From Hyphomicrobiales bacterium (GTDB taxonomy: Bacteria; Pseudomonadota; Alphaproteobacteria; Rhizobiales; Xanthobacteraceae), in assembly GCA_009377755.1 (NCBI GenBank), contig WHTM01000005.1, positions 62,001 through 126,000 of the forward strand: a stretch of DNA of 64,000 nucleotides, in the 5' to 3' direction. Position numbers and translations under genes: made by a program. This document shows, piece after piece, positions 46,892 through 58,996 of this stretch (its first letter is position 1; each line of letters begins with the position of its first letter). Under the pieces are notes generated by a model. The model worked only from the letters and a program-made list of their open reading frames with translations. It did no database searches and had not been told where the DNA came from.

Positions 46892-47947
46892 TCAACGTGC
46901 GATGACGATTGTGGTGCAGGCACTTTCGAGCTTCGGCAGTTCACGGCTGCTCGCCATACGAACCTTCAGCGTTCGCTCGTCGCTGCGAACGACCGGACAA
47001 TAGGGATCGGGACTGCCAAGCGCGCCCATTAAGCGCCGCCGGCCGGCGCAGCCACCGCTACACGTCTCCCGATAGCCGCAGCTCGCGCAGGCTTGGGGCG
47101 TCGCACGCGCGGCAGCGAACGGCTCGGTGGCGATAATATCAGCCCCGAGATCAAGAAGCAGGTCGAGCGGCGCGCCGGTGCCTGGCCAATAAACGCAAGG
47201 TTGCACGGTCGCGCGCGGGGTGACCCGGACCGTCGCCACTCCACAGCCACCCTGCCGCGGCGGCATGCCGGCCATTGCCCGCACGAGCGGCTCGCCGATC
47301 GCGATCACGTCGGTGCGCGCGAACAACGACTCAAACCCCTGCCAATACTCCTCATACGAAAGCGCGAATTTGTCGGTTCGCACCGACTGATAGACGTTGA
47401 TCCGCAACGGCGCGTCATACTGTTTCACCACCTCCGCGATGCCGGCAAGGCGGGCGAAATTTGAACGCATCATCACCGCAATGAATGTCACCGGGACACC
47501 GAGCCGGCGGCAGCGCTCCGCCTGCTCGTGCAAGAGTCGCCAATTGCCGGTGCCGCGCTGAGCGTCTTGTTCGGCCTCGGTCGTGTAGTCGAGCGAGAAT
47601 TCCACATCCTTGAATGCGGTGACTTGCTGGTCGTCGAGAATCTCAATCGAATGACCATTCGAGGTGATTGTGAGCTTGATCGGCTCATGCCTCAGAAAGT
47701 GTAGCAGTTGAGGAAATTCGGGATGCATTCCGTTTTCGCCGGTCCCGAGATTGACCGAGCGCACGGGAATGCGCCGCATCACTGAGCGCACTTGGTCGAG
47801 CGCCAGGCGATCGACGCGCGTCGGATCACGGTAGCAAAAATTGCACGCGAGATTACACTCGTTCGTGAGTCCGATCCCAAGTGCGAAGGCACGCTCGGCG
47901 ACCGTCGCCGACTTGCCCTCACTCGATCGTGAAGCCGCTAACGCCAT
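46892..47947 (-). CDS. Radical SAM/SPASM protein A
   Basis: This 351-aa protein binds the radical SAM cluster with CNLACNFC (Cys31, Cys35, Cys38). A C-terminal SPASM-type region has further Cys: CGVATVRVTPRATVQPC, then ACASCGYRETCSGGCAGRR and YC, enough for two auxiliary clusters. SPASM enzymes commonly modify peptides or serve cofactor synthesis. ATG 47947 has AGGA upstream; a TTG at 47954-47956 is possible. It is divergent from a methyltransferase, with about 58 bases between them. No clear precursor peptide gene is adjacent. The substrate is unknown, and its location suggests a tie to the selenium genes. Confidence 0.86.
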   Translation of the reverse strand: MALAASRSSEGKSATVAERAFALGIGLTNECNLACNFCYRDPTRVDRLALDQVRSVMRRIPVRSVNLGTGENGMHPEFPQLLHFLRHEPIKLTITSNGHSIEILDDQQVTAFKDVEFSLDYTTEAEQDAQRGTGNWRLLHEQAERCRRLGVPVTFIAVMMRSNFARLAGIAEVVKQYDAPLRINVYQSVRTDKFALSYEEYWQGFESLFARTDVIAIGEPLVRAMAGMPPRQGGCGVATVRVTPRATVQPCVYWPGTGAPLDLLLDLGADIIATEPFAAARATPQACASCGYRETCSGGCAGRRRLMGALGSPDPYCPVVRSDERTLKVRMASSRELPKLESACTTIVIAR

Positions 47948-48005
47948 GATGGTCAAATCCTCATGGTAGGTTCGCCGATGGATTCTCCGTCACGTTCAAT
48001 CGGCG

Positions 48006-48848
48006 ATGACACTAAAGACTGACCTCCAACCAGACCAGCAAACGGCCCTCTGGGATGATCACGTTGCTGTGTACGAGTCCGTGTTCGAGCCTTTGACGAC
48101 GGCATTCGGGCGCCGGGCGCTTGATCTGCTCGCGCCCCGCACCGGCAGCCGCATCATTGATGTTGGGGCCGGAAGCGGTGGTGTCGCGTTGCTGGCCCAG
48201 AGCCGCGGCATTGATGTTCTTGCCATCGATGCCTCGGAACGAATGGTGGAGCGGATTCGAGAGCGGGCGGACGCGGTGGGTGGCCGACCAGGACGCATTC
48301 GTGCCGAGGTCATGGATGGCGCCGCGCTGACGCTCCCCGACGACAGCTTCGATGCCGGAATTTCAGTGTTCGGCGTGGTCCTGCTTCCGGACGCGAAATC
48401 GGGGGTCCGTGAAATGACGCGCGTGGTGAGGCCCGGAGCGCCGGTCGCAGTCGTTACCTGGACCGAAATGGAGCGCTACGAACTGGCGGCCCGCCTTCTT
48501 GACGCCATCGCGGCCGTGCGCGGCCCACAGCCTCCTCCGATGACCCTGCCGGCCCAGCTCCGATTCCGGGAGCCGGCCGTGTTCCAAAGCTTACTCGCTT
48601 CAGCCGGGCTCAACGTCAAATCGATCACGCGGCTTGAAGAGCAATGGACATTGCCGTCAGCGGCGTGGATTGCCCAAAACGTCGCCTTCGCACCGGGAAT
48701 GTCCGCGATGGTTCGGGGGCTTGGCCATGAGCGCGATGCTGTGATGCAATATTTCGTGTCCGCGCTTGAACGCGACCAGGGGCCCGGTGAAGTGACCCTT
48801 TCCGCCGTCGCCCATACTGGGATTGGGGTGAAACCGGACGCCCAATAA
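48006..48848 (+). CDS. Class I SAM-dependent methyltransferase
   Basis: This 280-aa cytosolic enzyme has motif I DVGAGSGGVALLAQ (about residues 52-65), an acidic end of strand beta-2 (LAIDASERMV), and post-motif I DGAALTLPDDSFDAG. It resembles UbiE/COQ5-like and small-molecule methyltransferases. Its promoter faces radical SAM protein A, and 124 bases downstream begins the ABC importer operon. Methylation of selenium, arsenic or a small organic product is possible; the sequence does not decide. The C-terminal 100 residues (QWTLPSAAWIAQNVAFAPGM) may form the acceptor lid. Confidence 0.85.
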   Translation: MTLKTDLQPDQQTALWDDHVAVYESVFEPLTTAFGRRALDLLAPRTGSRIIDVGAGSGGVALLAQSRGIDVLAIDASERMVERIRERADAVGGRPGRIRAEVMDGAALTLPDDSFDAGISVFGVVLLPDAKSGVREMTRVVRPGAPVAVVTWTEMERYELAARLLDAIAAVRGPQPPPMTLPAQLRFREPAVFQSLLASAGLNVKSITRLEEQWTLPSAAWIAQNVAFAPGMSAMVRGLGHERDAVMQYFVSALERDQGPGEVTLSAVAHTGIGVKPDAQ

Positions 48849-48934
48849 ATTGCGGTATTGCGTGTAACCAACGATTGTCTCCGGACGAATAAATGAGAAT
48901 GGGACACGCGGAACTGGCCCAAGTCGGCGCCATC

Positions 48935-48955
48935 TGCCCCTTCGCGCCTGGGGCA
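48935..48955. other. Stem-loop in the leader of the ABC operon
   Basis: TGCCCC, nine bases, GGGGCA form a hairpin ending 7 bases before the ribosome site AGGGAG of the binding-protein gene. It could affect translation or be part of an attenuator. Evidence is structural only. Confidence 0.3.
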
Positions 48956-48972
48956 CAGCCAGGGAGTGACCA

Positions 48973-49839
48973 ATGAAGCGAGCCATCTTTGCACTCATGC
49001 TTGCGGTGCCGCTGGCGGCAAGCCCCGTCCTCGCTCAAAGCAGGTCGACATTCGTCTTTACCGCCATTCCCGACCAGGACGAAACGCGCCTGGTCCAGCG
49101 CTTCACGCGCGTCGCGGACCTGTTGCGGAAAAAGCTTGGGGTGGACGTAAAGTATCTGCCGGTGAAGAGCTACCCCGCCACGGTGACCGCCTTCGTCAAT
49201 AGCCAGGTCCAATTGGCATGGTTCGGCGGCTTCACGGGCGTGCAGGCGCGCAGCCGAGTGCAAGACTCCGAGGCCATTGCGCAAGGCGCCGAGGATGTCA
49301 ATTTCAAGAGCTTCCTCATTGCCAATGCGAAGACCGAGCTCAGACCCTCCAAGGAGCTGCCGAAGGGAATCGCCGGCAAGACCTTCACGTTCGGCTCGCG
49401 CTCGTCAACCTCGGGCCGCCTGATGCCGGAATTCTTCATCCGCAAAGAATTCGGAAAGGGCCCCGACGAGATTTTCGCCCGCGTCGGCTTCTCCGGCGAC
49501 CACAGCCGCACCATCCAACTCGTGCAATCGGGCGCGTACGAGGTGGGCGTCCTCGACTACACGGTGTGGGGGCTGGAAGACAAAGCCGGCAAGGTCGACC
49601 ATTCCAAGGTCAAGGTGATCTGGGAATCGCCGACCTATCCGGACTACCAGTGGACCGTCCGCGGCGATGTCGACACGATTTTCGGAACCGGCTTCAAGGA
49701 AAAGCTCCGGGCGGCCCTGCTGTCCATCGACGATCCGGAGATCATGAGCCAGTTCGGGCGGTCAAAATTCATCCCGGCCAAGAATTCGGACTATGCCCCG
49801 ATCGCGGAGGTCGGCAAGGTCACCAAACTCTTGAACTGA
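48973..49839 (+). CDS. PhnD-like periplasmic binding protein (putative selenate/oxyanion)
   Basis: This 288-aa exported protein has a signal peptide (RAIFALMLAVPLAASPVLAQ) and a PhnD-type fold. Segments such as FTAIPDQDETRLVQRF, YPATVTAF and VQLAWFGGFTGVQAR match the family I know as putative selenate ABC transporter binding proteins (TIGR04553), which occurs next to selD. Thus it likely binds selenate or selenite rather than phosphonate. AGGGAGTGACC precedes the ATG. It is first in an operon with an ATPase, a double permease and the selD fusion. The ligand is inferred from context and family, not from binding residues. Confidence 0.87.
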   Translation: MKRAIFALMLAVPLAASPVLAQSRSTFVFTAIPDQDETRLVQRFTRVADLLRKKLGVDVKYLPVKSYPATVTAFVNSQVQLAWFGGFTGVQARSRVQDSEAIAQGAEDVNFKSFLIANAKTELRPSKELPKGIAGKTFTFGSRSSTSGRLMPEFFIRKEFGKGPDEIFARVGFSGDHSRTIQLVQSGAYEVGVLDYTVWGLEDKAGKVDHSKVKVIWESPTYPDYQWTVRGDVDTIFGTGFKEKLRAALLSIDDPEIMSQFGRSKFIPAKNSDYAPIAEVGKVTKLLN

Positions 49840-49850
49840 CGTCACGGCCT

Positions 49851-50510
49851 GTGCCCGCATTGGTGGATTTGCGCAACGCGTCGGCCGGATACGGCGGCCA
49901 CGCGGTGCTGCATGATATCGATCTGACGATCCATACCGGCGAACGTATCGCCGTCATGGGTCGGTCGGGCGCAGGCAAGTCCACGCTACTGAATCTGTTG
50001 CACCAAAATTTGGCCGAGCGCGTTGCACTCATTCCTCAGGCTGCCGCACTGGTCAAGACACTATCGGTCTTCCACAACGTCTACATGGGACGCCTGGACC
50101 GGCACCCGACCTGGTACAATCTGCGGACGCTTGTGTGGCCCAAACGCAGCGACGTCTCCGAAATTGAAGATGTCCTTGATCGGGTGGGACTTACCGATAA
50201 GCTGTTTGCCGCGGCCGGGACGCTTTCGGGCGGTCAGCAACAGCGCACGTCGGTCGCCCGCGCGTTATACAATGGCCGTTCCATCGTCATAGGCGATGAG
50301 CCGGTTTCCGCGCTGGACCGCGTTCAGGCCGCTGACATTCTCGCGACTTTATGTGCGAGGCACGACACGGCAATTCTGGCTCTGCATGACATTCCACTCG
50401 CGCTCGCCAATGTCGACCGAATTGTCGTGATCGACGAGGGCCGGATCGTGCTGGATGCGCCGGCGCGGACGCTCAGTGCCAGCGACCTCGTGCCGTATTA
50501 CGGCGGCTAA
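49851..50510 (+). CDS. PhnC-like ABC transporter ATPase
   Basis: This 219-aa cytosolic ATPase of the PhnC type has Walker A MGRSGAGKSTLLN (about residues 36-48), Q-loop ALIPQ, signature LSGGQQQRTSVARAL and Walker B SIVIGDEPVSALD, with the switch His in LALHD. It is shorter than typical PhnC (about 260 aa). It starts at GTG 49851, 11 bases after the binding-protein stop. It precedes the permease by 7 bases. The intact catalytic residues show an active importer. Confidence 0.86.
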   Translation: MPALVDLRNASAGYGGHAVLHDIDLTIHTGERIAVMGRSGAGKSTLLNLLHQNLAERVALIPQAAALVKTLSVFHNVYMGRLDRHPTWYNLRTLVWPKRSDVSEIEDVLDRVGLTDKLFAAAGTLSGGQQQRTSVARALYNGRSIVIGDEPVSALDRVQAADILATLCARHDTAILALHDIPLALANVDRIVVIDEGRIVLDAPARTLSASDLVPYYGG

Positions 50511-50517
50511 CCCAGCC

Positions 50518-52083
50518 ATGACCGCCCGCGCCGCCGTAATTCCGAAGCTCGGCTACCGCTCAGCAAGTACTCTGTTTCTACTTGTCGCCGCGGCCGCCGT
50601 TGTTGTCGCCGATCTCTCGATCACGGCACTTGATCCATGGCAAGAAATTCGGCGGCTGCTGGCAGGGCTCGTGCAGCCGGACGTTATGTCGATCGAATCC
50701 ATGAGTGTCGTGTGGACGGTCGCATTCGCCGTGCTTGGCGTTTCGCTAGGCGCGACCATGGGGTTCATGTTTGCGCTGATCTTCGCGCGCCTGCGATCGA
50801 TCCGGCTCCTGTGTGCGTTCCTACGGTCCATACACGAGCTGTTCTGGGCGCTACTGCTGATCCAGGTCTCCGGACTGGGCCCAACGACCGGAATTCTTGC
50901 AATCGCGATCCCCTATTCGGGGATCTTCGCCAAAGTCTTCGCCGAGATGATCGAGGAGGCCGATCTTTCGGCCGAGCGTGTGCTGCCGACTGGAACCTCG
51001 ATCGTATCGCGCTTTGCTTTTGCGCGCATTCCCGAGCTCGCGCCGCAATTCTGGACCTATACGCTTTACCGGTTGGAATGCGGAATGCGCTCAACACTTG
51101 TTCTCGGCTTTATCGGTTTGCCGACGATCGGGTTTCATCTCGATTCGTTCTTCAAGCAAGGTAATTACGCGCAAGCCGCGGCGTTGCTATTTTCCTTCTA
51201 CCTGTTGATTGGTTCGCGGCGCCTGTGGGCTCGCCCGGCAACGGTGCCATTGTTGATAATTGCAAGCCTGCTGGTCCTGCCCGACGCCATCGGCGGCGGT
51301 TCAACGCTTGCCAATCTTACGCGCTTCGTGACCCATGAGATTGTTCCCACGCCACTGCGTGGCGCCGACCTGCTGTCGATCGCAACATGGGCGAGTCTTG
51401 CGGCCTGGCTTTCGCCGATCGTCACCGATCAGGTCGTTCCCGGCGCCATCCAGACGCTGGTTCTGTCACAGATCGCGCTCGCCGCCATGGCGATTATCGC
51501 TCTCGTCCTGTTTCCCTTCATCTGCCGCCGCTTTGCCGGCCGAGTTGGGCAGCCGCTCGGGCGCATCGCACTCGTCGTCGTGCGATCGACGCCGGAATAC
51601 ATGCTGGTCTATGTGTTGCTGCAACTGCTTGGGCCGTCGATGCTGCCGGCGATCGTTGCCCTATCGCTGCACAACGGAGCGATAGTCGGCTACCTGATGG
51701 GTCGGCATGCCGACACGCTTAGCTATCGGGCCGATGCGCCCAAAGGCCTTAATCTATACGCCTACGAGACCGTCCCGCGGCTCTACGGGCAATTTCTTGC
51801 CTATGTGCTGTATCGTTGGGAGATTATTTTGCGTGAGAGCGCCATTTTCGGCATCCTTGGTATCTTGACCCTTGGCTACTATGTCGATGCGGCGATAGCG
51901 GAAATCCGGCTCGATGTCGCACTGGTCCTAATCATCGCAACCGCCTTGTTGTCGATGACCGTGGACGCATTGTCACGCTGGTTGCGGCGACGATTGCGGA
52001 TCGACACCATGCCAACACGGCTGTCTGAAGCTCCGAGCGAGACGCGGCTTGGTCAGCCGGCTGGTGCGGAGCAAATCGCATGA
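50518..52083 (+). CDS. PhnE-like permease with two fused modules
   Basis: This 521-aa inner-membrane protein has two PhnE-like halves. Half 1 (residues about 1-260) contains the EAA-like loop segment FAFARIPELAPQFWTYTLYR, followed by LECGMRSTLVLGFIG. Half 2 repeats it as AYETVPRLYGQFLAYVLYR, followed by WEIILRESAIFGILG. Fusion would make one chain form the whole transmembrane pore with the PhnC-like ATPase. Each half has about six helices. The stop overlaps the selD start (ATGA), so uptake and SelD are co-translated. Confidence 0.87.
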   Translation: MTARAAVIPKLGYRSASTLFLLVAAAAVVVADLSITALDPWQEIRRLLAGLVQPDVMSIESMSVVWTVAFAVLGVSLGATMGFMFALIFARLRSIRLLCAFLRSIHELFWALLLIQVSGLGPTTGILAIAIPYSGIFAKVFAEMIEEADLSAERVLPTGTSIVSRFAFARIPELAPQFWTYTLYRLECGMRSTLVLGFIGLPTIGFHLDSFFKQGNYAQAAALLFSFYLLIGSRRLWARPATVPLLIIASLLVLPDAIGGGSTLANLTRFVTHEIVPTPLRGADLLSIATWASLAAWLSPIVTDQVVPGAIQTLVLSQIALAAMAIIALVLFPFICRRFAGRVGQPLGRIALVVVRSTPEYMLVYVLLQLLGPSMLPAIVALSLHNGAIVGYLMGRHADTLSYRADAPKGLNLYAYETVPRLYGQFLAYVLYRWEIILRESAIFGILGILTLGYYVDAAIAEIRLDVALVLIIATALLSMTVDALSRWLRRRLRIDTMPTRLSEAPSETRLGQPAGAEQIA

Positions 52084-54437
52084 ACAATACGCAGCCCATC
52101 ATCAAGGACGTCGTCCTCGTCGGTGCCGGCCATGCCCATGTGACCGTGCTGCGCATGTTCGGCATGAAGCCGATCCCCGGTGTGCGCTTTACGTTAATCA
52201 GCCGTGAGGTGCACACGCCTTATTCCGGAATGCTACCTGGCCTGGTGGCGGGACTCTATGACTTTGACGATGCCCATATCGATACCGGCCCTCTTGCACG
52301 CTTCGCGGGCGCGCGACTTTACCAGGACGAGGTGACGGGGCTCGATCTGAGTGCTCGGCACGTGATCTGCCGCCACCGCCCGCCGGTGCCGTTCGACTTG
52401 CTGTCACTTAATGTCGGGTCAACACCGAACACCGCGGACACGCCCGGCGCCAAGGACCATGCCATTCCGGTCAAGCCGATCGACGGTTTCCTAAAGCACT
52501 TCAACGCGCTGAAGCAGCGCGTGCTTGAGCGCCGCGGCAGGGCGCGGATCGTGCTGGTCGGCGCGGGCGCAGGGGGCGTCGAATTGCTGCTGTCGGTCGA
52601 GCGAAGGCTGCGGCGCGAGCTTGTCGATGCCAACCTGCCGACATCTAGCCTGTCGTTCTGTCTGGTCTCCGACACGGCGGACATCCTGCCGACCTTTCAG
52701 CCTGCGTTCCGTGAGCGATTCCGAACGATCCTCACGGAGCGCAGCATTGACATCGTGACCGGCGCGCCGGTGACCCGGGTCGAGGCGGGCCGACTGATTC
52801 TCGATGGGCGTGACGCCCTCGCCGCCGACGAGATTCTTTGGACGACGCAGGCCGGACCAGCGCACTGGCTTGAGACGACCGGGCTGCCGTTGGACGGGAG
52901 CGGCTTTCTCAAGGTGGATGAAACCCTTCGCGTTGCGGGGCAAGACAGCCTGTTCGCTGCCGGCGACACGATTGCGTTTCCCCATCGGGCTTTGCCCAAG
53001 TCCGGGGTTTACGCGGTGCGCGCCGGTCCTGTCCTCGCCGACAACATTCGACGCACGCTCTTGGACCGCCCGCTTCGCCCATTCAAGCCGCAGCGTGAAG
53101 CGCTTTACTTGGTATCGACTGGAACGCCCCGCGCATTCGGCACCCGAAACGGCCTCGTCGTCGGGGGCGATTGGGTGTGGCGCTGGAAGGATTGGATCGA
53201 TCGCCGCTTCATGGCGAAGTTCAATGATCTCCCCGAGATGCCACAGCCTGCGATCGAGGCATCGCCCGTCGCCGATCAGCAGGCGCTGAAGGACATCTCT
53301 GCGATTGCCATGCGCTGCGGTGGCTGTGGGGCAAAGGTTGGAGCGACTGTCTTGACCCGCGCGCTCGGCGGCATCGAGCCCGAGCCGCGCTCGGACGTGA
53401 TCTTGGGTCTCAATGCTCCGGACGACGCCGCCGTGGTCGATACCGGCGGCGAACGGCTATCGGTGCAGACGGTCGACTATTTCCGCGCCATTGTCGACGA
53501 TCCCTACACGTTTGGTAAAATCGCCGCTAATCATTCGCTCGGCGACATCTATGCCATGGGCGGCGAACCGCAATCGGCGCTCGCCATTGCCACGTTGCCC
53601 TATGGTCTGGAGGAAAAAGTCGGGGCCGATCTTTCCGCAATGATGTCGGGGGCCAACGAGGTGCTGCGCGAGGCCGGTTGCGCCCTGGTTGGCGGCCACA
53701 CCAGCGAAGGAGCGGAACTCGCCCTCGGCTTCGCCGTCAATGGCCTGGTCTCGCGTGACGCAGCTACCCGCAAGGGCGGGATGAAAGCCGGCGATGCACT
53801 GATTCTGACCAAGCCCATTGGAACCGGAACATTGCTTGCCGCCGACATGCGCGGCAAGGCCAAAGCGCGGTGGGTCATGGGTGCCATCGCCCATATGCTG
53901 CATTCGAATAGAGCAGCCGCCGACATTCTCCGCCGACACAATGTTCGCGCCGCAACCGACATCACCGGGTTTGGGCTGATCGGCCATCTGGTTGAGATGG
54001 TGCGCGCCTCGGATGTCGATGTGACGATCGTGCCCGACCGGGTGCCGTTTTTGGACGGCGCCTGCAAAACCGCTGCGCGCGGCATCTTCTCCTCACTGCA
54101 GCCGCAGAACGTGCGTCTGCGGCGCGCCATCAGGAACCTCGACGCGGCGGCCACTCATCCGCTGTATCCGCTGCTGTTCGACCCCCAAACGGCGGGCGGC
54201 CTGCTTGCTTCGGTTCCATTCATGAAGGCCGAAGAGTGCGTCACCGCGCTTCGCACAGCCGGCTACGCTGGTGCAAGCGTGATCGGCACCGTATCGCCGC
54301 GGGGTTCGGCGCTCGAACCACTCTCCATTGACTGGGACGGAACGGCGCTTGCGGTCGAGCCAGCGCAACCAACGTCGAAACAGAAGACCACGCACCCAAT
54401 GCCGGAGCGGTCCCATGCCAAAGAACCCATTGACTGA
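52080..54437 (+). CDS. selD: FAD-dependent oxidoreductase/selenophosphate synthetase fusion
   Basis: This 785-aa protein joins a pyridine nucleotide-disulfide oxidoreductase-like domain (residues about 5-380; VLVGAGHAHVTVLRMF for FAD, VLVGAGAGGVELLLSV for NAD(P), CLFAAGD-like LFAAGDTIAF) to SelD (about 408-760). The SelD active site has RCGGCGAK (Cys416, Lys419) and the metal and ATP loop ADE-like sequence ALVGGHTSEG. SelD makes selenophosphate from selenide and ATP; the front domain could reduce the selenium source to selenide. This is the fusion type whose front half is TIGR03169. The last 23 bases overlap the DoxX-like gene. Confidence 0.92.
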   Translation: MNNTQPIIKDVVLVGAGHAHVTVLRMFGMKPIPGVRFTLISREVHTPYSGMLPGLVAGLYDFDDAHIDTGPLARFAGARLYQDEVTGLDLSARHVICRHRPPVPFDLLSLNVGSTPNTADTPGAKDHAIPVKPIDGFLKHFNALKQRVLERRGRARIVLVGAGAGGVELLLSVERRLRRELVDANLPTSSLSFCLVSDTADILPTFQPAFRERFRTILTERSIDIVTGAPVTRVEAGRLILDGRDALAADEILWTTQAGPAHWLETTGLPLDGSGFLKVDETLRVAGQDSLFAAGDTIAFPHRALPKSGVYAVRAGPVLADNIRRTLLDRPLRPFKPQREALYLVSTGTPRAFGTRNGLVVGGDWVWRWKDWIDRRFMAKFNDLPEMPQPAIEASPVADQQALKDISAIAMRCGGCGAKVGATVLTRALGGIEPEPRSDVILGLNAPDDAAVVDTGGERLSVQTVDYFRAIVDDPYTFGKIAANHSLGDIYAMGGEPQSALAIATLPYGLEEKVGADLSAMMSGANEVLREAGCALVGGHTSEGAELALGFAVNGLVSRDAATRKGGMKAGDALILTKPIGTGTLLAADMRGKAKARWVMGAIAHMLHSNRAAADILRRHNVRAATDITGFGLIGHLVEMVRASDVDVTIVPDRVPFLDGACKTAARGIFSSLQPQNVRLRRAIRNLDAAATHPLYPLLFDPQTAGGLLASVPFMKAEECVTALRTAGYAGASVIGTVSPRGSALEPLSIDWDGTALAVEPAQPTSKQKTTHPMPERSHAKEPID

Positions 54438-55077
54438 TGCCTGGCGGTTCCTGACCGCGGCCACCGATGACTATATGGCGCTGGGCGGCTGGCGCTTCGT
54501 GATCCTCGCGCTGTTCTGGGCGCTGTTGGCCGCAAGCGTCGTCATTGCAGTGAAAAATTGGAATGAAGACCCGGAGCAGCGATCAGGGCGCCACATCGGG
54601 ATCTGGATCGTGCGTGTCCTGATCGGATGCATGTGGTTCGAGGGGATGCTTTGGAAGCTTCCGCTGCCGGCCTCAAGCGGATTGGAGTATTGGACCGCAC
54701 AAATGGGCACCCGAGCGGCATTCGAGTTCCATCGCAATCTGGTGACGGGGTTCCTGATTCCAAATCTCTACCTGTTCGGCCCCCTCGTGTTTCTTGCGGA
54801 GCTCACCTTCGCCACCTCGATGATCCTCGGACTTGCCGTCCGTGTCATCGGCGTCCTCGCCATCGTCTTCGTCCTGCATTTGTGGCTCGGAATCTATTTG
54901 CCGGGCGATCCTGCCGAATGGCCATGGTCGTACATCTTCCTCGCGATGCTGATGTTTCTGTTCTCGCTGCACGCCGCCGGCCGCAGCCTCGGGTTGGATG
55001 CCTGGCTGCGACGACATGGGCCGGATATTCGCGACGGCAAGGGATGGCTCGGGAAGCTTCTCAACGTTGCGACCTGA
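54415..55077 (+). CDS. DoxX/DoxD-like membrane protein
   Basis: This 220-aa inner-membrane protein has four or five helices (for example WRFVILALFWALLAASVVIA, LVTGFLIPNLYLFGPLVFL and IGVLAIVFVLHLWLGIYL). It resembles DoxD, the large subunit of thiosulfate:quinone oxidoreductase, and DoxX proteins. The ATG lies within the end of the selD fusion, in another frame, overlapping by 23 bases. It could link electron transfer from the quinone pool to sulfur or selenium chemistry. The gene is last in its operon, converging on the GT2 gene. Confidence 0.78.
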   Translation: MPKNPLTDAWRFLTAATDDYMALGGWRFVILALFWALLAASVVIAVKNWNEDPEQRSGRHIGIWIVRVLIGCMWFEGMLWKLPLPASSGLEYWTAQMGTRAAFEFHRNLVTGFLIPNLYLFGPLVFLAELTFATSMILGLAVRVIGVLAIVFVLHLWLGIYLPGDPAEWPWSYIFLAMLMFLFSLHAAGRSLGLDAWLRRHGPDIRDGKGWLGKLLNVAT

Positions 55078-55087
55078 CGGGGTAATG

Positions 55088-55852
55088 CTATGCGCGCTTT
55101 TCGCGCCGAAGCGAGAGCGCAAGACGCACAAAGGTCGCGGAGATGCTCCACGCGGCTTTGACGCCCGCAGCGGCGTTGCCGGACACTTTTGATACGCCTC
55201 CGATCCGGCGCCGTTGGCCGACGGGGATCTCCACGTACGGAAGGCCAGCCGCGACAATGCGCATCAGCATTTCCAGATTCCAGCCGTACGTCGGCTCGCG
55301 CATTCCAAGGCGCTGGAGCGCATCGTACCGGATCGCGCGGAATGGCGACATGTCGGTGAAGGACGCCCCATAGATCAGGCGCAACAACAGACCCGCGACA
55401 TGTCCCGCGGCGACCTGCTGCAGCGCCAGGCTGCCGGGCTCGCGGTCGCCGCGGGTGCGGGAGCCGTGCACGAAGACCGCCCGGCCATCGGCTATCGGCG
55501 CAATCAAGGCGGGAATGAATTCGGGACGATCGCTGCCGTCACCGTCGATGAATACCACAATATCGGTGTCGCCACGCAGTGCCGCGATGCCGGCTTGAAC
55601 TGCCCTCCCATAGCCACGTCGTCGCTCTTGCACGACGCGCGCTCCCGCCGCCGCCGCCCGCTCGACAGTCCGGTCACGTGAGCCGCCGTCCACAACGATA
55701 ATGTCGGCTGCGCCCTGAGCGCGCACCGCGGTCACCACCGCTGGTATCGCCTCTTCCTCGTCAAGGCAGGGGATGATAACCGATACGACGACAACTGCCG
55801 CCAACCGGGCCGGATCGCCGCGCGTCGGCGTGCTGGTCGGCTGGTCGCTCAC
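55088..55852 (-). CDS. GT2 family glycosyltransferase
   Basis: This 254-aa GT-A enzyme has the nucleotide-sugar site SVIIPCLDEEEAIP, DGGSRDRT, the DXD-type motif FIDGDGSDRPEF (about residues 108-119), and the C-terminal RRRIGGVSKVSG typical of dolichyl-phosphate-sugar synthase relatives. It probably transfers a hexose to a lipid or small acceptor. Translation begins at GTG 55852 inside the stop of radical SAM protein B (GTGA). It is the last gene of a four-gene operon. Confidence 0.85.
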   Translation of the reverse strand: MSDQPTSTPTRGDPARLAAVVVVSVIIPCLDEEEAIPAVVTAVRAQGAADIIVVDGGSRDRTVERAAAAGARVVQERRRGYGRAVQAGIAALRGDTDIVVFIDGDGSDRPEFIPALIAPIADGRAVFVHGSRTRGDREPGSLALQQVAAGHVAGLLLRLIYGASFTDMSPFRAIRYDALQRLGMREPTYGWNLEMLMRIVAAGLPYVEIPVGQRRRIGGVSKVSGNAAAGVKAAWSISATFVRLALSLRREKRA

Positions 55853-56925
55853 AGACTCCAGCGCAGCCCGCAATTGGCGCAAGCCTTTGAAGGCTCGCTC
55901 GACAGCAGCGCCGCCCGGAATGATTGATAGGCGGAGCCGTTCCACATTTCCCGCAACGTCTGCTGAGTGGCATCGCCGAGCGTGTAGTGTTCGTAGCCTC
56001 GCTGCGAGAATGGCGCGATGCAGCAAGGCAAAGCGCGCCCGTTGGCGGTGATGTACATCAACGTCCACGGCCGTCGGCACAGCGACCAGTGGGCGTTGTC
56101 ACCGGACTGCTTCAGGCTCATGCCTGGCTCGGACGCCGCTCCCGAGGCACTGAACGAGATTCCCAGATCACGTGCCAGCGCCTCGGCCTCCCTCAGATAG
56201 ACCGACTCTTCGCGCGTCATCTGTTCGTAGAGCGCCTGATCCGGCCGGGCCTTGCCTATGGCGTGCTCGTCGAAGAAGACAAGACGCTGGAGATAGACTT
56301 CCCTAACGCCAATATCAGCAGCGACGCGTACAAAGGCCGGCAATTCCTCGACTGTCTCCTTCAGGCCGGTCAGCCACGCCGACACCAGCGGCCTCTCGTG
56401 ACCTTCGCGGATCTGCAACTCGCGAAAGGCGCGCACGTTGCGCAGAATGCGGTCGAAATAGTTCTTGCCGCGGATCTCACGGAAGCTCTTGGCATTGGAG
56501 GCATCGAGCGAAACCCGTAGCTCGTCGAGCTCTGCGTCGATCAATGCCCTGCCATTGCGCTCATTCAACACTGTGCCATTGGTATTGAACAGCACATAGA
56601 CATCGCGGTCCTTCAGATATCGGACCATGCGCGGCAGGTTCCTGACCAGCATCGGTTCGCCGACACCGTGAAGTACGGCTCGGGCAAGGCTCGGCACCTG
56701 ATCGACAACCGACGTGAACAGTTCCCAGCTCATGTCCGCGGGAGGCTCGAGCTCCTCGTAGGTACGCGGACAGGTCGTGCAGAGAAGGTTACAGCGGTTG
56801 GTCGTTTCCAGATAGAGACAGACCGGCGGGCGAACGGCAATGCTGTCGCGCTCCTGCACCGCTTCATGATAGCGGCGCGGATCGACCGCGGTACCGGCGG
56901 GATCGGCAACTGTCGTTTCGTTCAT
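55849..56925 (-). CDS. Radical SAM/SPASM protein B
   Basis: This 358-aa enzyme has the radical SAM triad CNLLCTTC (Cys45, Cys49, Cys52) and a SPASM region with CRRPWTLMYITANGRALPCC and KACANCG. It is different from radical SAM protein A: similarity is confined to the motifs. The order GT-rSAM-GT2 and overlapping frames suggest it modifies a sugar-linked or peptide intermediate. The N-terminal 35 residues are additional. Start ATG 56925 overlaps the upstream membrane GT (ATGA). The substrate is not known. Confidence 0.87.
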   Translation of the reverse strand: MNETTVADPAGTAVDPRRYHEAVQERDSIAVRPPVCLYLETTNRCNLLCTTCPRTYEELEPPADMSWELFTSVVDQVPSLARAVLHGVGEPMLVRNLPRMVRYLKDRDVYVLFNTNGTVLNERNGRALIDAELDELRVSLDASNAKSFREIRGKNYFDRILRNVRAFRELQIREGHERPLVSAWLTGLKETVEELPAFVRVAADIGVREVYLQRLVFFDEHAIGKARPDQALYEQMTREESVYLREAEALARDLGISFSASGAASEPGMSLKQSGDNAHWSLCRRPWTLMYITANGRALPCCIAPFSQRGYEHYTLGDATQQTLREMWNGSAYQSFRAALLSSEPSKACANCGLRWSL

Positions 56926-58292
56926 GCAGCGGGCCTTCCACCCTCGTTACGCGCTTTCCAGGTCCGCCAGATCGTGACGGTACATGCCAAAGCAAATGCA
57001 CCGTACAAGATCGACTTGCGGATCAGGATCGGGACGTGCTCGCCCCAACCGGCCTCCTCCTGCAGCAACAGGGCCCCGATGCTCGCCGTCCAGACCGGCG
57101 CGCCGCCGCACAACGCAAGGAACGGCGTGACCACGAGAAAATACCAGGGATAGTTCGGCGATATCAGGACTAGGGCTGCCAGTAACAGCTTGTTGATGTC
57201 GGCAAGGGCCAATTCCATCGATCGCGGCTCCTGACGAGCCGCCATCAGCGACATCCCACCGATAACCAGCAATGCGACGGACCAGTAGGCTGCGACATCG
57301 CCGGGCACGGTGCCGAATACGGTGCGCCAGGCCGCAAGCGGCCAGATTGTCTCACCGGAGACGATATTTTCCTCGCTGAGGTAGCCGGTTGACAGGAACC
57401 CAAGGACGCCGGCTCCGACCGACAAGTATGGTACGTAACACAAGGTCAATACGGTGACCACGATCAGGGGCATCTTCCAGTCCCACAGCCGCCACAGCGG
57501 CGGCAACGCCGCCAGCGCAAGAGGCTTGGCGAGGGCGCCGAGCGCAATGATCGCCGCGCCGCGGAGCGGCCGCGAGCAGACAGCGAACCATATGCCAAGC
57601 ATCATCAGCGCGACCATGAGCGCATCGATGTGGCCGCTGTTGGCGATCTCCCACATCGGCAACGGATGCCACAGATAGGCGACGATGCGCGTCACCGGCT
57701 TGCGGAGATGCTGCAGCAAGAGGAAGATCAGCGTCGTCGTCACCGCTTCGCAACCAAGCAACGCGAGTTTCATCGCGGTGACACTCTCACCCAGGCGCGT
57801 CACGAGGAAGAAGAAAAACTGCGCGACCGGGGGATAGATTGTGACGGCGTAGTCGGCGCGATTGATTTGCGGATAGATGACTTTGTCGCGCAACGCCGAC
57901 AGCGTCTCGTGTGCGGGGACAAAGCGATACGGATTGATACCGGCTGCCTGGACCTTGCCGTCCCAGATGTATCGGTAGATGTCCGATGACAGCAGGGGGT
58001 CGATGATCAGCAGAACAGTGCGCAGCGCGATTGCGACGCCGAAGATGAGCCAAAGAGCGTAGGATGTTGGTGTGTGCTCCGCTGCCCGGACCGCTAAGAT
58101 GGCCACGAGCCCGACCGGTATCGTCGCCGCCATATAGCCATTGTCGCCCCATGTTCGAAAAATCGGTGGAGTAGCAAGAGTCAGAACGATCGCCAGTGCA
58201 CCAAGTGCCGCCAAGCAACAGACGCCAACGAGACTGCGGGACCACTCCCCATCCGGCCGGTTGGCCAGACCGCCGCCGTTCGAGGCATTCAT
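56922..58292 (-). CDS. Polytopic membrane glycosyltransferase (GT-C type)
   Basis: This 456-aa integral membrane protein has about 11-12 helices. The loop after helix 3 contains LLSSDIYRYIWDGKVQAAGI and NPYRFVP, the SD-type acidic loop of GT-C mannosyltransferase-like (GT87/DUF2029) enzymes that use polyprenyl-phosphate sugars. The GT2 enzyme two genes downstream could supply such a lipid-linked sugar. It overlaps its neighbours on both sides by ATGA, so all four genes are translationally coupled. The acceptor is unknown. Confidence 0.82.
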   Translation of the reverse strand: MNASNGGGLANRPDGEWSRSLVGVCCLAALGALAIVLTLATPPIFRTWGDNGYMAATIPVGLVAILAVRAAEHTPTSYALWLIFGVAIALRTVLLIIDPLLSSDIYRYIWDGKVQAAGINPYRFVPAHETLSALRDKVIYPQINRADYAVTIYPPVAQFFFFLVTRLGESVTAMKLALLGCEAVTTTLIFLLLQHLRKPVTRIVAYLWHPLPMWEIANSGHIDALMVALMMLGIWFAVCSRPLRGAAIIALGALAKPLALAALPPLWRLWDWKMPLIVVTVLTLCYVPYLSVGAGVLGFLSTGYLSEENIVSGETIWPLAAWRTVFGTVPGDVAAYWSVALLVIGGMSLMAARQEPRSMELALADINKLLLAALVLISPNYPWYFLVVTPFLALCGGAPVWTASIGALLLQEEAGWGEHVPILIRKSILYGAFALACTVTIWRTWKARNEGGRPAA

Positions 58293-58996
58293 GAGGCGGC
58301 CTTGGTCATTTCGGCGATGCAGGCCCGTGTTGCAGCTGCCGCACCGCCATTGCGGAACCGATCGGAGCGTCCGGCCAACTCGTCATGGAGCCAGCGCAAT
58401 GTTTCCGCGTCATCGACGTCGTACCATTCCGGTAAAACGACACTCTCAAGTCCGATCTGCTTTGCTCGCTTCAGGGTTTGTTCCGCGACGACTTCTGTCC
58501 CCCAAAGAATGTCCTCGAACAGACGACGATGCGCATGCTTCAGGCCAATCAGATAATAGCCGCCATCGCTCGCCGGCCCGAGAACCATGCGATCGCCGGC
58601 CCGACGCAAGGTGTCAACAGTCTCCACCAGCAATGATGGCGGTAAAGTTGGACTGTCGCCGTTCACCAACACAACGCAGTCATGGCCCATTGTCAGCAGA
58701 TTATGAACGGCGCCATGCAGCACGTTGCCGAATTGTGCGTCAGCTTGGAGCAGGAGATCGAACGAAGGCGGGAACAAATCCCTTAGTTCCGATTCGCTGC
58801 CCGCAGGGGCGTAAACGCCATACCCCTTTCGTCCGAATTGTTGAGGAATGCTCTCAATCGAAGCGGCAACATCACGCAGAAAGCATGCGGACAACTGCGC
58901 CGCAGATGCCACGCCAATCTCAGCCCCAAGGCGGGTTTTGGTGCGTCCCGGCCGCGGCGCCTTGCACATGATGCCAATCGCAGCCAATTTCGCCAT
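58289..58996 (-). CDS. DUF2064 (rSAM/selenodomain-associated) transferase
   Basis: This 235-aa GT-A-like protein starts with LAAIGIMCKAPRPGRTKTRLG, then GDSPTLP, GPASDGGYYLIG and the WYDVDD motif. These match the family called TIGR04282, transferase 1, rSAM/selenodomain-associated, related to CofC nucleotidyltransferases. It heads the operon containing radical SAM protein B. Its presence here is the strongest family-level link between the glycosyltransferase operon and the selenium operon. Whether it transfers sugar or nucleotide is unsettled. Confidence 0.86.
   Translation of the reverse strand: MAKLAAIGIMCKAPRPGRTKTRLGAEIGVASAAQLSACFLRDVAASIESIPQQFGRKGYGVYAPAGSESELRDLFPPSFDLLLQADAQFGNVLHGAVHNLLTMGHDCVVLVNGDSPTLPPSLLVETVDTLRRAGDRMVLGPASDGGYYLIGLKHAHRRLFEDILWGTEVVAEQTLKRAKQIGLESVVLPEWYDVDDAETLRWLHDELAGRSDRFRNGGAAAATRACIAEMTKAAS

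Follow-up and report, generated by a model that had tools for sequence, protein, structure and literature searches.

Introduction

Selenoneine is synthesized by SenA and SenB, the latter being a selenosugar synthase, and arsenosugar routes include a nucleoside phosphorylase. Other bacteria carry SelD, the selenophosphate synthetase, with no known use for it, and an unknown SelD-based trait has been deemed likely in them (PMC5029168). These orphan-SelD organisms include Methylobacterium nodulans (PMC5322559, PMC5029168), the neighbours reported for orphan selD genes code for isochorismatase-like and cysteine desulfurase-like proteins and an ATP-binding cassette (ABC) ATPase (PMC5029168), and a 2022 review still calls the trait unknown (PMC9312934). 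Here we analyse a stretch of 64,000 nucleotides (hereafter the window) from the genome of a Hyphomicrobiales bacterium of the family Xanthobacteraceae (assembly GCA_009377755.1, contig WHTM01000005.1, positions 62,001 to 126,000), which holds an island of genes for an oxidoreductase-SelD fusion, an ABC importer, two radical S-adenosylmethionine (SAM) proteins, rSAM1 and rSAM2, and glycosyltransferases (GTs). We propose that the island is one cluster, of which one half makes an envelope glycoconjugate and the other supplies selenophosphate, the selenium being used through rSAM1; we hold this reading tentatively, at somewhat less than an even chance. No description of such a cluster was found in the open-licence PubMed Central (PMC) literature, judged by title and abstract, and the selenium pathway is apparently undescribed. 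By offering concrete partners for SelD, the cluster opens the orphan-SelD question to gene deletion and selenium labelling.

Results

The island genes recur together across lineages

Eleven genes make up the island, at positions 46892-58996 of the window. Open reading frames (ORFs) and family profiles verified the families and positions given for them by the first-pass annotation, with corrected start sites, as follows.

46892..47956, minus strand: rSAM1, radical SAM protein with SPASM-like C-terminal cysteines and a CX3CX2C motif (CNLACNFC); probe of the census
48006..48848, plus strand: MT, SAM-dependent methyltransferase, Methyltransf_25/UbiE-like, divergent from rSAM1
48973..49839, plus strand: SBP, binding protein of the importer, TIGR04553 'putative selenate'/PhnD-like
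49836..50510, plus strand: ABC ATPase, PhnC-like; the start is approximate (the mechanical ORF opens at 49218, within the SBP gene)
50455..52083, plus strand: permease, PhnE-like twice in a single chain of 542 amino acids (aa)
52080..54437, plus strand: FAD-SelD fusion, a TIGR03169 FAD/pyridine-nucleotide oxidoreductase joined to the selenophosphate synthetase SelD
54415..55077, plus strand: DoxX/DoxD-like membrane protein, with a 23-base overlap with the SelD end
55088..55822, minus strand: GT2, AglJ/polyprenyl-phosphate-glycosyltransferase-like; the start is approximate
55849..56925, minus strand: rSAM2, radical SAM/SPASM protein with a CX3CX2C motif (CNLLCTTC)
56922..58292, minus strand: GT87, GT-C-type membrane glycosyltransferase
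58289..58996, minus strand: DUF2064/TIGR04282, CofC-like nucleotidyl- or glycosyltransferase

An alignment of four rSAM1 sequences (A1) was scanned against 84,980 species genomes and gave 135 pattern-matching stretches and 129 relatives, the best 80 of which were kept as loci. By record title, 28 of these come from Alphaproteobacteria (one is labelled only Proteobacteria) and 52 from Acidobacteria and others; L185 and L230 are apparently the same contigs as loci from genomes G177 and G291 (L230 has an identical SelD row). Partners were counted within about 10 kb of rSAM1, and contig ends were scored as misses. GT2 and GT87 each occurred at 58 of the 80 loci and were the most constant partners, followed by DUF2064 (49), DoxX (27), rSAM2 (25), SBP (24), SelD (24), MT (18), the FAD domain (17), SenA (10) and SenB (9). 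Among the 28 alphaproteobacterial loci, SelD and SBP were each present at 24, DoxX at 23, the permease at 21, rSAM2 and GT2 at 20, GT87 at 18, MT at 17, the FAD domain and a phosphorylase at 16, DUF2064 at 12, SenA at 8 and SenB at 7, and the four loci lacking SelD (L168, L170, L176 and L179) are each truncated by a contig end in an importer or MT gene. A SelD-domain match at 1e-40 was obtained in 9 of 150 genomes of the order, the window's genome included, so that the presence of SelD at 24 of 28 loci lies far above background. The 52 other loci held GT87 (40), GT2 (38), a LolA-like secreted protein (38), DUF2064 (37), DoxX of either kind (36), another methyltransferase (35), rSAM2 (5), a phosphorylase (3) and SenA/SenB (2), and neither SelD nor SBP was found at any of them.

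Twenty-nine loci around different radical SAM hits of the same order served as decoys, and GT2, GT87, DUF2064, SelD, SBP, DoxX and MT were found within 1.5 kb in 0 of 29; the 80 loci trimmed to the same 1.5 kb retained SBP in 23, GT2 and MT in 17 each, SelD in 10, DoxX in 7, GT87 in 4 and DUF2064 in 3. The order of the genes varies. The GT block lies past DoxX in the window, Bosea (L169), Beijerinckiaceae (L171), Elioraea (L177), Roseomonas (L235) and Methylobacterium, past rSAM1 in L172, L174, L176 and L208, and next to SelD-FAD in L184 and L237. Linkage thus persists through changed gene order, suggesting that the genes work together. The census supports recurrence of the island genes as a unit across alphaproteobacterial families and partly across phyla, in agreement with the co-occurrence that the first-pass annotation had proposed to look for. 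It also overturned the idea of two unrelated modules, which the separation of the blocks in the window's family had raised.

Neighbouring genes of the island overlap or abut, bearing out the tightly overlapping operons described earlier: SBP and ATPase share 49836-49839, ATPase and permease 50455-50510, permease and FAD-SelD 52080-52083, and on the minus strand rSAM2 and GT87 share 56922-56925 and GT87 and DUF2064 58289-58292. DoxX starts at an in-frame ATG at 54415, not at 54328, and GT2 at about 55822. The island is flanked by polA, coding for DNA polymerase I, and an MmgE/PrpD gene, and its G+C content is 61.9%, against 64.5% for the window. Several assignments fall under the family cut-offs, namely the PhnC-like ATPase (147.5 bits, cut-off 266.1), the permease (TIGR01097, 189.1 bits over two stretches, cut-off 216.7) and the DoxD/DoxX-like protein, a weak match (18.8 bits, cut-off 22.7); the DUF2064 protein exceeds that of TIGR04282 (153 bits, cut-off 134). 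A second TIGR04282 gene of the window's genome (G000:C24:56587-57147, 177 bits) outscores the island copy.

SelD is present without three known users

The fusion protein scored 442.9 bits on TIGR03169 (cut-off 310) and 304.8 bits on the SelD family TIGR00476 (cut-off 125), confirming the oxidoreductase-SelD fusion recognized earlier. TIGR04369, an oxidoreductase fusion family marked 'not SelD', was rejected at 462.9 bits, under its cut-off of 700, and by family score the fusion is SelD. The motif RCGGCGAKVG retains, from the active-site loop of the E. coli type, the Lys and one Cys; its GGCGAK aligns with AGCGCK of the best-matching solved SelD chain, and this loop is conserved. Family membership thus establishes the fusion as a predicted source of selenophosphate.

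In a tree of 75 SelD sequences (2 of 77 rows, shorter than 250 aa, were omitted, and the program warned of some long branches), the rSAM1-linked SelDs formed two separate lineages. One is a FAD-SelD clade of 21 rows (support 98/93), of which 15 come from rSAM1 loci, 5 are close relatives and one is the window's own SelD; the other is a clade of 8 free SelDs from Methylobacterium (support 100/99), nested in another lineage. Outside the 21-row clade fall seven further FAD-SelDs from the family or order; in six cases the genome has SelB over the cut-off. Several family genomes (L093-L107) have a full-length match to the FAD domain (TIGR03169-like) that lacks the SelD part. In Methylobacterium sp. 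WSM2598 (L238) the cluster is degraded, with an SBP remnant, no permease match and rSAM1 spread over two frames, and SelD matches are found there; some orphan SelDs may be relics.

The window's genome assembly (5.2 Mb in 95 contigs, 95% complete) was compared with profiles of known SelD users. No SelB exceeded the cut-off (best 183.3 bits against 242.25; 6 of the 14 genomes searched exceed it), MnmH (TIGR03167) gave zero matches and was over the cut-off in 0 of the 14 genomes, and neither SenB (TIGR04348, best 42.8 against 300) nor SenA (NF041186, best 324.6 against 420, at an EgtB-like gene) was found over the cut-off. The assembly carries SelD without these three known users; SelA, tRNA-Sec and YqeB/YqeC were not searched. 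These results argue for a use of SelD in the window's genome that differs from selenocysteine and selenouridine, as claimed in the first-pass annotation, and that claim stands on its SelB and MnmH side, the scope of the search and the completeness of the assembly qualifying the remainder. No in-frame selenocysteine codon was found in the cluster: the stops in matches across the 80 loci all lay in the regions of starts or ends, or where the sequence is degraded or its frame shifted.

Selenoneine genes accompany the selenium arm in some relatives

The alternative that survives best is that the selenium arm leads to selenoneine or another small selenium compound and the radical SAM and GT genes to an envelope compound free of selenium, both lying side by side because they protect against the same stress. 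We judge it unlikely, though deserving of serious consideration. SelD fusions of more than 70% identity were found in full in G169, G276, G261 and G291 and in part in G243 and G177, and in five of these six closest fusion carriers (all but G243) both SenB and SenA are over the cut-off. In G261 and G291 their genes adjoin SelD-FAD, in G276 they adjoin the importer, and in G169 and G177 they lie on other contigs. The nine loci of the census with SenB, and the glycosyl blocks of other family genomes that lack SelD (see below), also speak for it. Against it, SenB was found in only 6 of 50 genomes searched, 2 of them among 20 Alphaproteobacteria; these 50 represent loci of the 80 chosen for having no SenB in sight, so that SenB status covers 59 of the 80. 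The 18 alphaproteobacterial rSAM1 genomes out of 20 in which it was not found include Bosea vaviloviae SD260, Roseomonas sp. CECT 9278 and Methylobacterium sp. J-030, none of which carries the label of a metagenome-assembled genome in its record. Moreover, rSAM1 itself is linked to the GT block even where SelD sits elsewhere in the genome. A selenium arm serving as plain selenoneine supply was rejected, since most of the carriers searched yielded no SenB and none was over the cut-off in the window's assembly.

The SenA and SenB genes of G169 share a contig with an EgtB-like gene (L154); the flanks of this region map to separate places in the window's genome (40 of 275 candidates were scored). 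At L207 and L214, both from Acidobacteria/Blastocatellia, SenA and SenB lie near rSAM1 and GT2, so that the link to selenoneine extends beyond Alphaproteobacteria.

The binding protein resembles PhnD1

The SBP, which had been described as a selenate-type binding protein, scored 352.9 bits on TIGR04553 (cut-off 250), and of five further SBPs encoded at rSAM1 loci four also exceeded this cut-off. Its nearest solved relatives are cyanobacterial PhnD1 proteins (PDB 7s6g/5lq5), the ligands of which are phosphate, phosphite and methylphosphonate. In PhnD1, phosphate is bound by Y44, S124-T125-S126, H156, D203 and Y204, while D11 and N174 hold the cap and T65 and S123 hold a buried water (PMC10284923). 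The SBP residues D34, Y67, S145-T146-S147, H177 and Y225, equivalent to D11, Y44, the STS stretch, H156 and Y204 of PhnD1, are kept in 26 of 26 SBPs compared, and D224 (D203 of PhnD1) is kept in 23. N174 is replaced by Asp in 24 of the 26 and S123 by Ala in 21, the window's protein having Ser at the latter position. The family assignment of the first-pass annotation is thus upheld, but nearly all of the pocket appears to be that of a phosphate- and phosphite-binding protein, and 'selenate' is the name of the family only.

The pocket of phosphite-binding relatives accepts three oxygens beneath a tyrosine cap (PMC5700983). By analogy, such a pocket would suit selenite, although the sequence alone is not decisive. 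A 2023 paper terms the role of PhnD1 in marine picocyanobacteria paradoxical; a selenium oxyanion is a possible ligand for that protein, and no paper linking PhnD1 with selenium was found in the open-licence PMC literature.

The pocket and the ligands of the solved relatives would also fit a system in which the element is not selenium, the importer transporting an oxyanion such as phosphite or phosphate while the SelD-like enzyme phosphorylates a different substrate. We consider this improbable: the fusion scores well over the SelD cut-off with a conserved active-site loop, two separate SelD lineages are tied to rSAM1, and SenA/SenB join the locus in both alphaproteobacterial and acidobacterial records.

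Neither radical SAM protein falls in a named subfamily

The first-pass annotation had called both radical SAM proteins SPASM enzymes. rSAM2 reached 57.5 bits on the Pfam SPASM domain (cut-off 21.5), while rSAM1 remained just under its cut-off (26.8 against 27; the Bosea orthologue scored 27.1). For each protein, the 25 top-scoring families listed included no named subfamily or equivalog maturase over its cut-off. The best family for rSAM1 was the mycofactocin maturase MftC, at 71.7 bits against 265; ArsS (TIGR04167) gave 29.2 of 300 for rSAM1 and did not appear for rSAM2, for which 25 of 44 families were listed. The solved chains nearest to rSAM2 are BtrN, PqqE and cytosylglucuronate decarboxylase, and the substrates of BtrN and cytosylglucuronate decarboxylase are a cyclitol or a sugar. 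Two groups of radical SAM proteins with no named subfamily over the cut-off thereby gain a genomic context.

A role of these proteins as maturases of a protein or cofactor, with selenium as a labile ligand or cofactor, would agree with their best weak scores, which point to mycofactocin, tungsten-oxidoreductase and related maturases, and with the DoxX and FAD-domain proteins, which suggest electron transfer. Maturase scores are nonetheless far under the cut-offs (71.7 of 265 and 139.2 of 380, for example), and Pfam revealed no peptide-recognition domain in rSAM1 or rSAM2. The gaps of the window's cluster held no convincing precursor peptide, and none common to at least five loci was found among ORFs of at least 60 aa, shorter ORFs not having been compared between loci. 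The most constant partners, moreover, are glycosyltransferases. We regard this explanation as slightly less probable still than the preceding one.

A glycosyl block that also occurs without SelD

Orthologues of rSAM2 (at least 64% identity) were found in 47 of 341 genomes of the window's family, the window's included, after exclusion of two hits at 28-30%. In the 20 of these loci that were fetched, DUF2064, rSAM2 and GT2 were always present, along with GT87 in 12, DoxX in 8, a phosphorylase in 8 and the LolA-like protein in 3. A SelD-domain hit at 1e-40, with three candidates scored per genome, was obtained in 19 of the 47. In the SelD-free genomes (see below) the rSAM2 core works without selenophosphate. 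Such a SelD-free version within the family provides a natural control for the contribution of selenium.

GT2 and GT87 are assigned to their classes by family, GT87 to the membrane GT-C class. GT2 resembles AglJ, ArnC, DPMS and GpgS, enzymes that load sugars onto polyprenyl phosphate or phosphoglycerate. The LolA-like secreted family (about 245 aa, no Pfam match, for example L202:11093-11827) is the partner found at 38 of the 80 loci, all of them non-alphaproteobacterial. Its predicted fold, computed from 20 of 37 members (pLDDT 86), matched DUF1329, LolA, LolB, LppX and LprG with TM-scores of about 0.5 or less; a fold of this LolA/LolB/LprG lipid-carrier type, as modelled, would fit an envelope lipid product. 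Together, the relatives of GT2, GT87 and rSAM2 and the LolA-like partner suggest an envelope glycoconjugate.

In relatives, the cluster is often accompanied by a nucleoside phosphorylase (PF01048), for example at L127, L128, L136, L138 and L141-L144. Its presence brings to mind the hopanoid and arsenosugar routes, which have adenosyl intermediates.

Discussion

A proposed pathway and the evidence for and against it

In the pathway that we propose, the glycosyl half, consisting of DUF2064, GT2, GT87 and rSAM2 with DoxX and, in relatives, often a phosphorylase, would make an envelope glycoconjugate. In the cytoplasm, DUF2064 and GT2 would form a sugar that is activated or linked to a lipid; rSAM2 would alter a sugar or its carrier, and GT87 would act as the sugar transferase on the far side of the membrane. 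The ABC importer would bring in an oxyanion, selenite being likelier than selenate, which the FAD domain would reduce and SelD would activate to selenophosphate. rSAM1 and MT would form the selenium-using branch, inserting selenium into part of the product or modifying that part; from the linkage, we infer that selenium ends up in the glycoconjugate.

Several observations weigh against this proposal. In the window's genome, the search for SelD users covered SelB, MnmH, SenA and SenB in an incomplete assembly, the SBP pocket is mostly that of PhnD1, and neither the nucleoside phosphorylase nor the LolA-like protein was found in the window; the LolA-like protein was also found at 0 of the 28 alphaproteobacterial loci. 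GT2, GT87 and DUF2064 are all missing in 7 of the 28 alphaproteobacterial and 10 of the 52 other loci, including L173 and L238, which have full 10-kb flanks on both sides. Within the window's family, no SelD hit at 1e-40 was obtained in 28 of the 47 rSAM2-orthologue genomes, some of them incomplete, and a recheck with the SelD model of 12 of these, chosen for having had no SelD hit earlier, was positive in 0 of 12, four of which are single-contig genomes 99-100% complete. The two blocks are often apart in that family; in G169, which among the relatives that have both is the closest, each is on a contig of its own (7.5 kb past DoxX was searched). The selenoneine genes beside the selenium arm in some relatives weaken the proposal further. 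Outside Alphaproteobacteria, a SelD match was found in 46 of 49 rSAM1 genomes, 45 over the cut-off (49 of the 52 loci were searched), with SelD near rSAM1 at 0 of 52 loci. An in-frame TGA in 37 of the 46 SelD-positive genomes means that a selenocysteine system may explain SelD there, and the association with rSAM1 is suggestive only.

Chance or inherited adjacency of two unrelated operons, to which the separation of the blocks in the window's family could point, is very improbable given the co-occurrence of the blocks in several gene orders and the empty decoys.

The unified selenium pathway put forward in the first-pass annotation is therefore plausible and partly supported: its genes do recur together, but the glycosyl block and rSAM2 also exist in SelD-free genomes and are not always tied to selenium. 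Our best reading is a conserved envelope-glycoconjugate pathway coupled to a dedicated selenium supply where rSAM1 is present. The more specific claim, that selenium supplied by SelD is used by rSAM1 in making an envelope glycolipid or glycoconjugate that contains selenium, and that this undescribed trait accounts for some orphan SelDs, is possible, and we hold it with greater doubt than the proposal of a single two-part cluster.

Comparison with described systems

The importer shares with the phosphite and phosphonate importers of PhnD1 and PtxB the fold family of the SBP and most of the ligand pocket; it differs from them in that the SBP exceeds the TIGR04553 cut-off, residue 174 (PhnD1 numbering) is mostly Asp instead of Asn, residue 123 is mostly Ala, and the genes are linked to rSAM1 and SelD. 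The mycofactocin system (MftC, MftF) likewise combines a glycosyltransferase with the radical SAM family that rSAM1 matches best, but rSAM1 stays far from the MftC cut-off and no precursor peptide was seen at the island. Arsenosugar clusters (ArsM, ArsS, TIGR04283, TIGR04282) resemble the island in having TIGR04282, over the cut-off here, and in uniting a methyltransferase, a radical SAM protein and a glycosyltransferase, and the nucleoside phosphorylase of the island's relatives is a further likeness. In contrast to them, the island falls far short of ArsS, reaches 57.8 of 182 on TIGR04283 and has no ArsM over the cut-off among the families listed.

In selenoneine synthesis (SenA, SenB and SelD/SenC), SelD also feeds a small-molecule pathway with a sugar step, and SenA and SenB stand beside rSAM1 or SelD in some relatives of the island. 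The window's assembly, however, has neither SenA nor SenB over the cut-off, and the island adds an importer, two radical SAM proteins, GT2, GT87 and DUF2064. The neighbours named for orphan selD genes differ from the radical SAM and GT genes of the island (PMC5029168). As in orphan-SelD organisms, SelD occurs here without known selenium traits, and several Methylobacterium genomes carry the island's cluster, which makes the cluster a candidate partner for some orphan SelD genes, also in the named strains in which SenB was not found.

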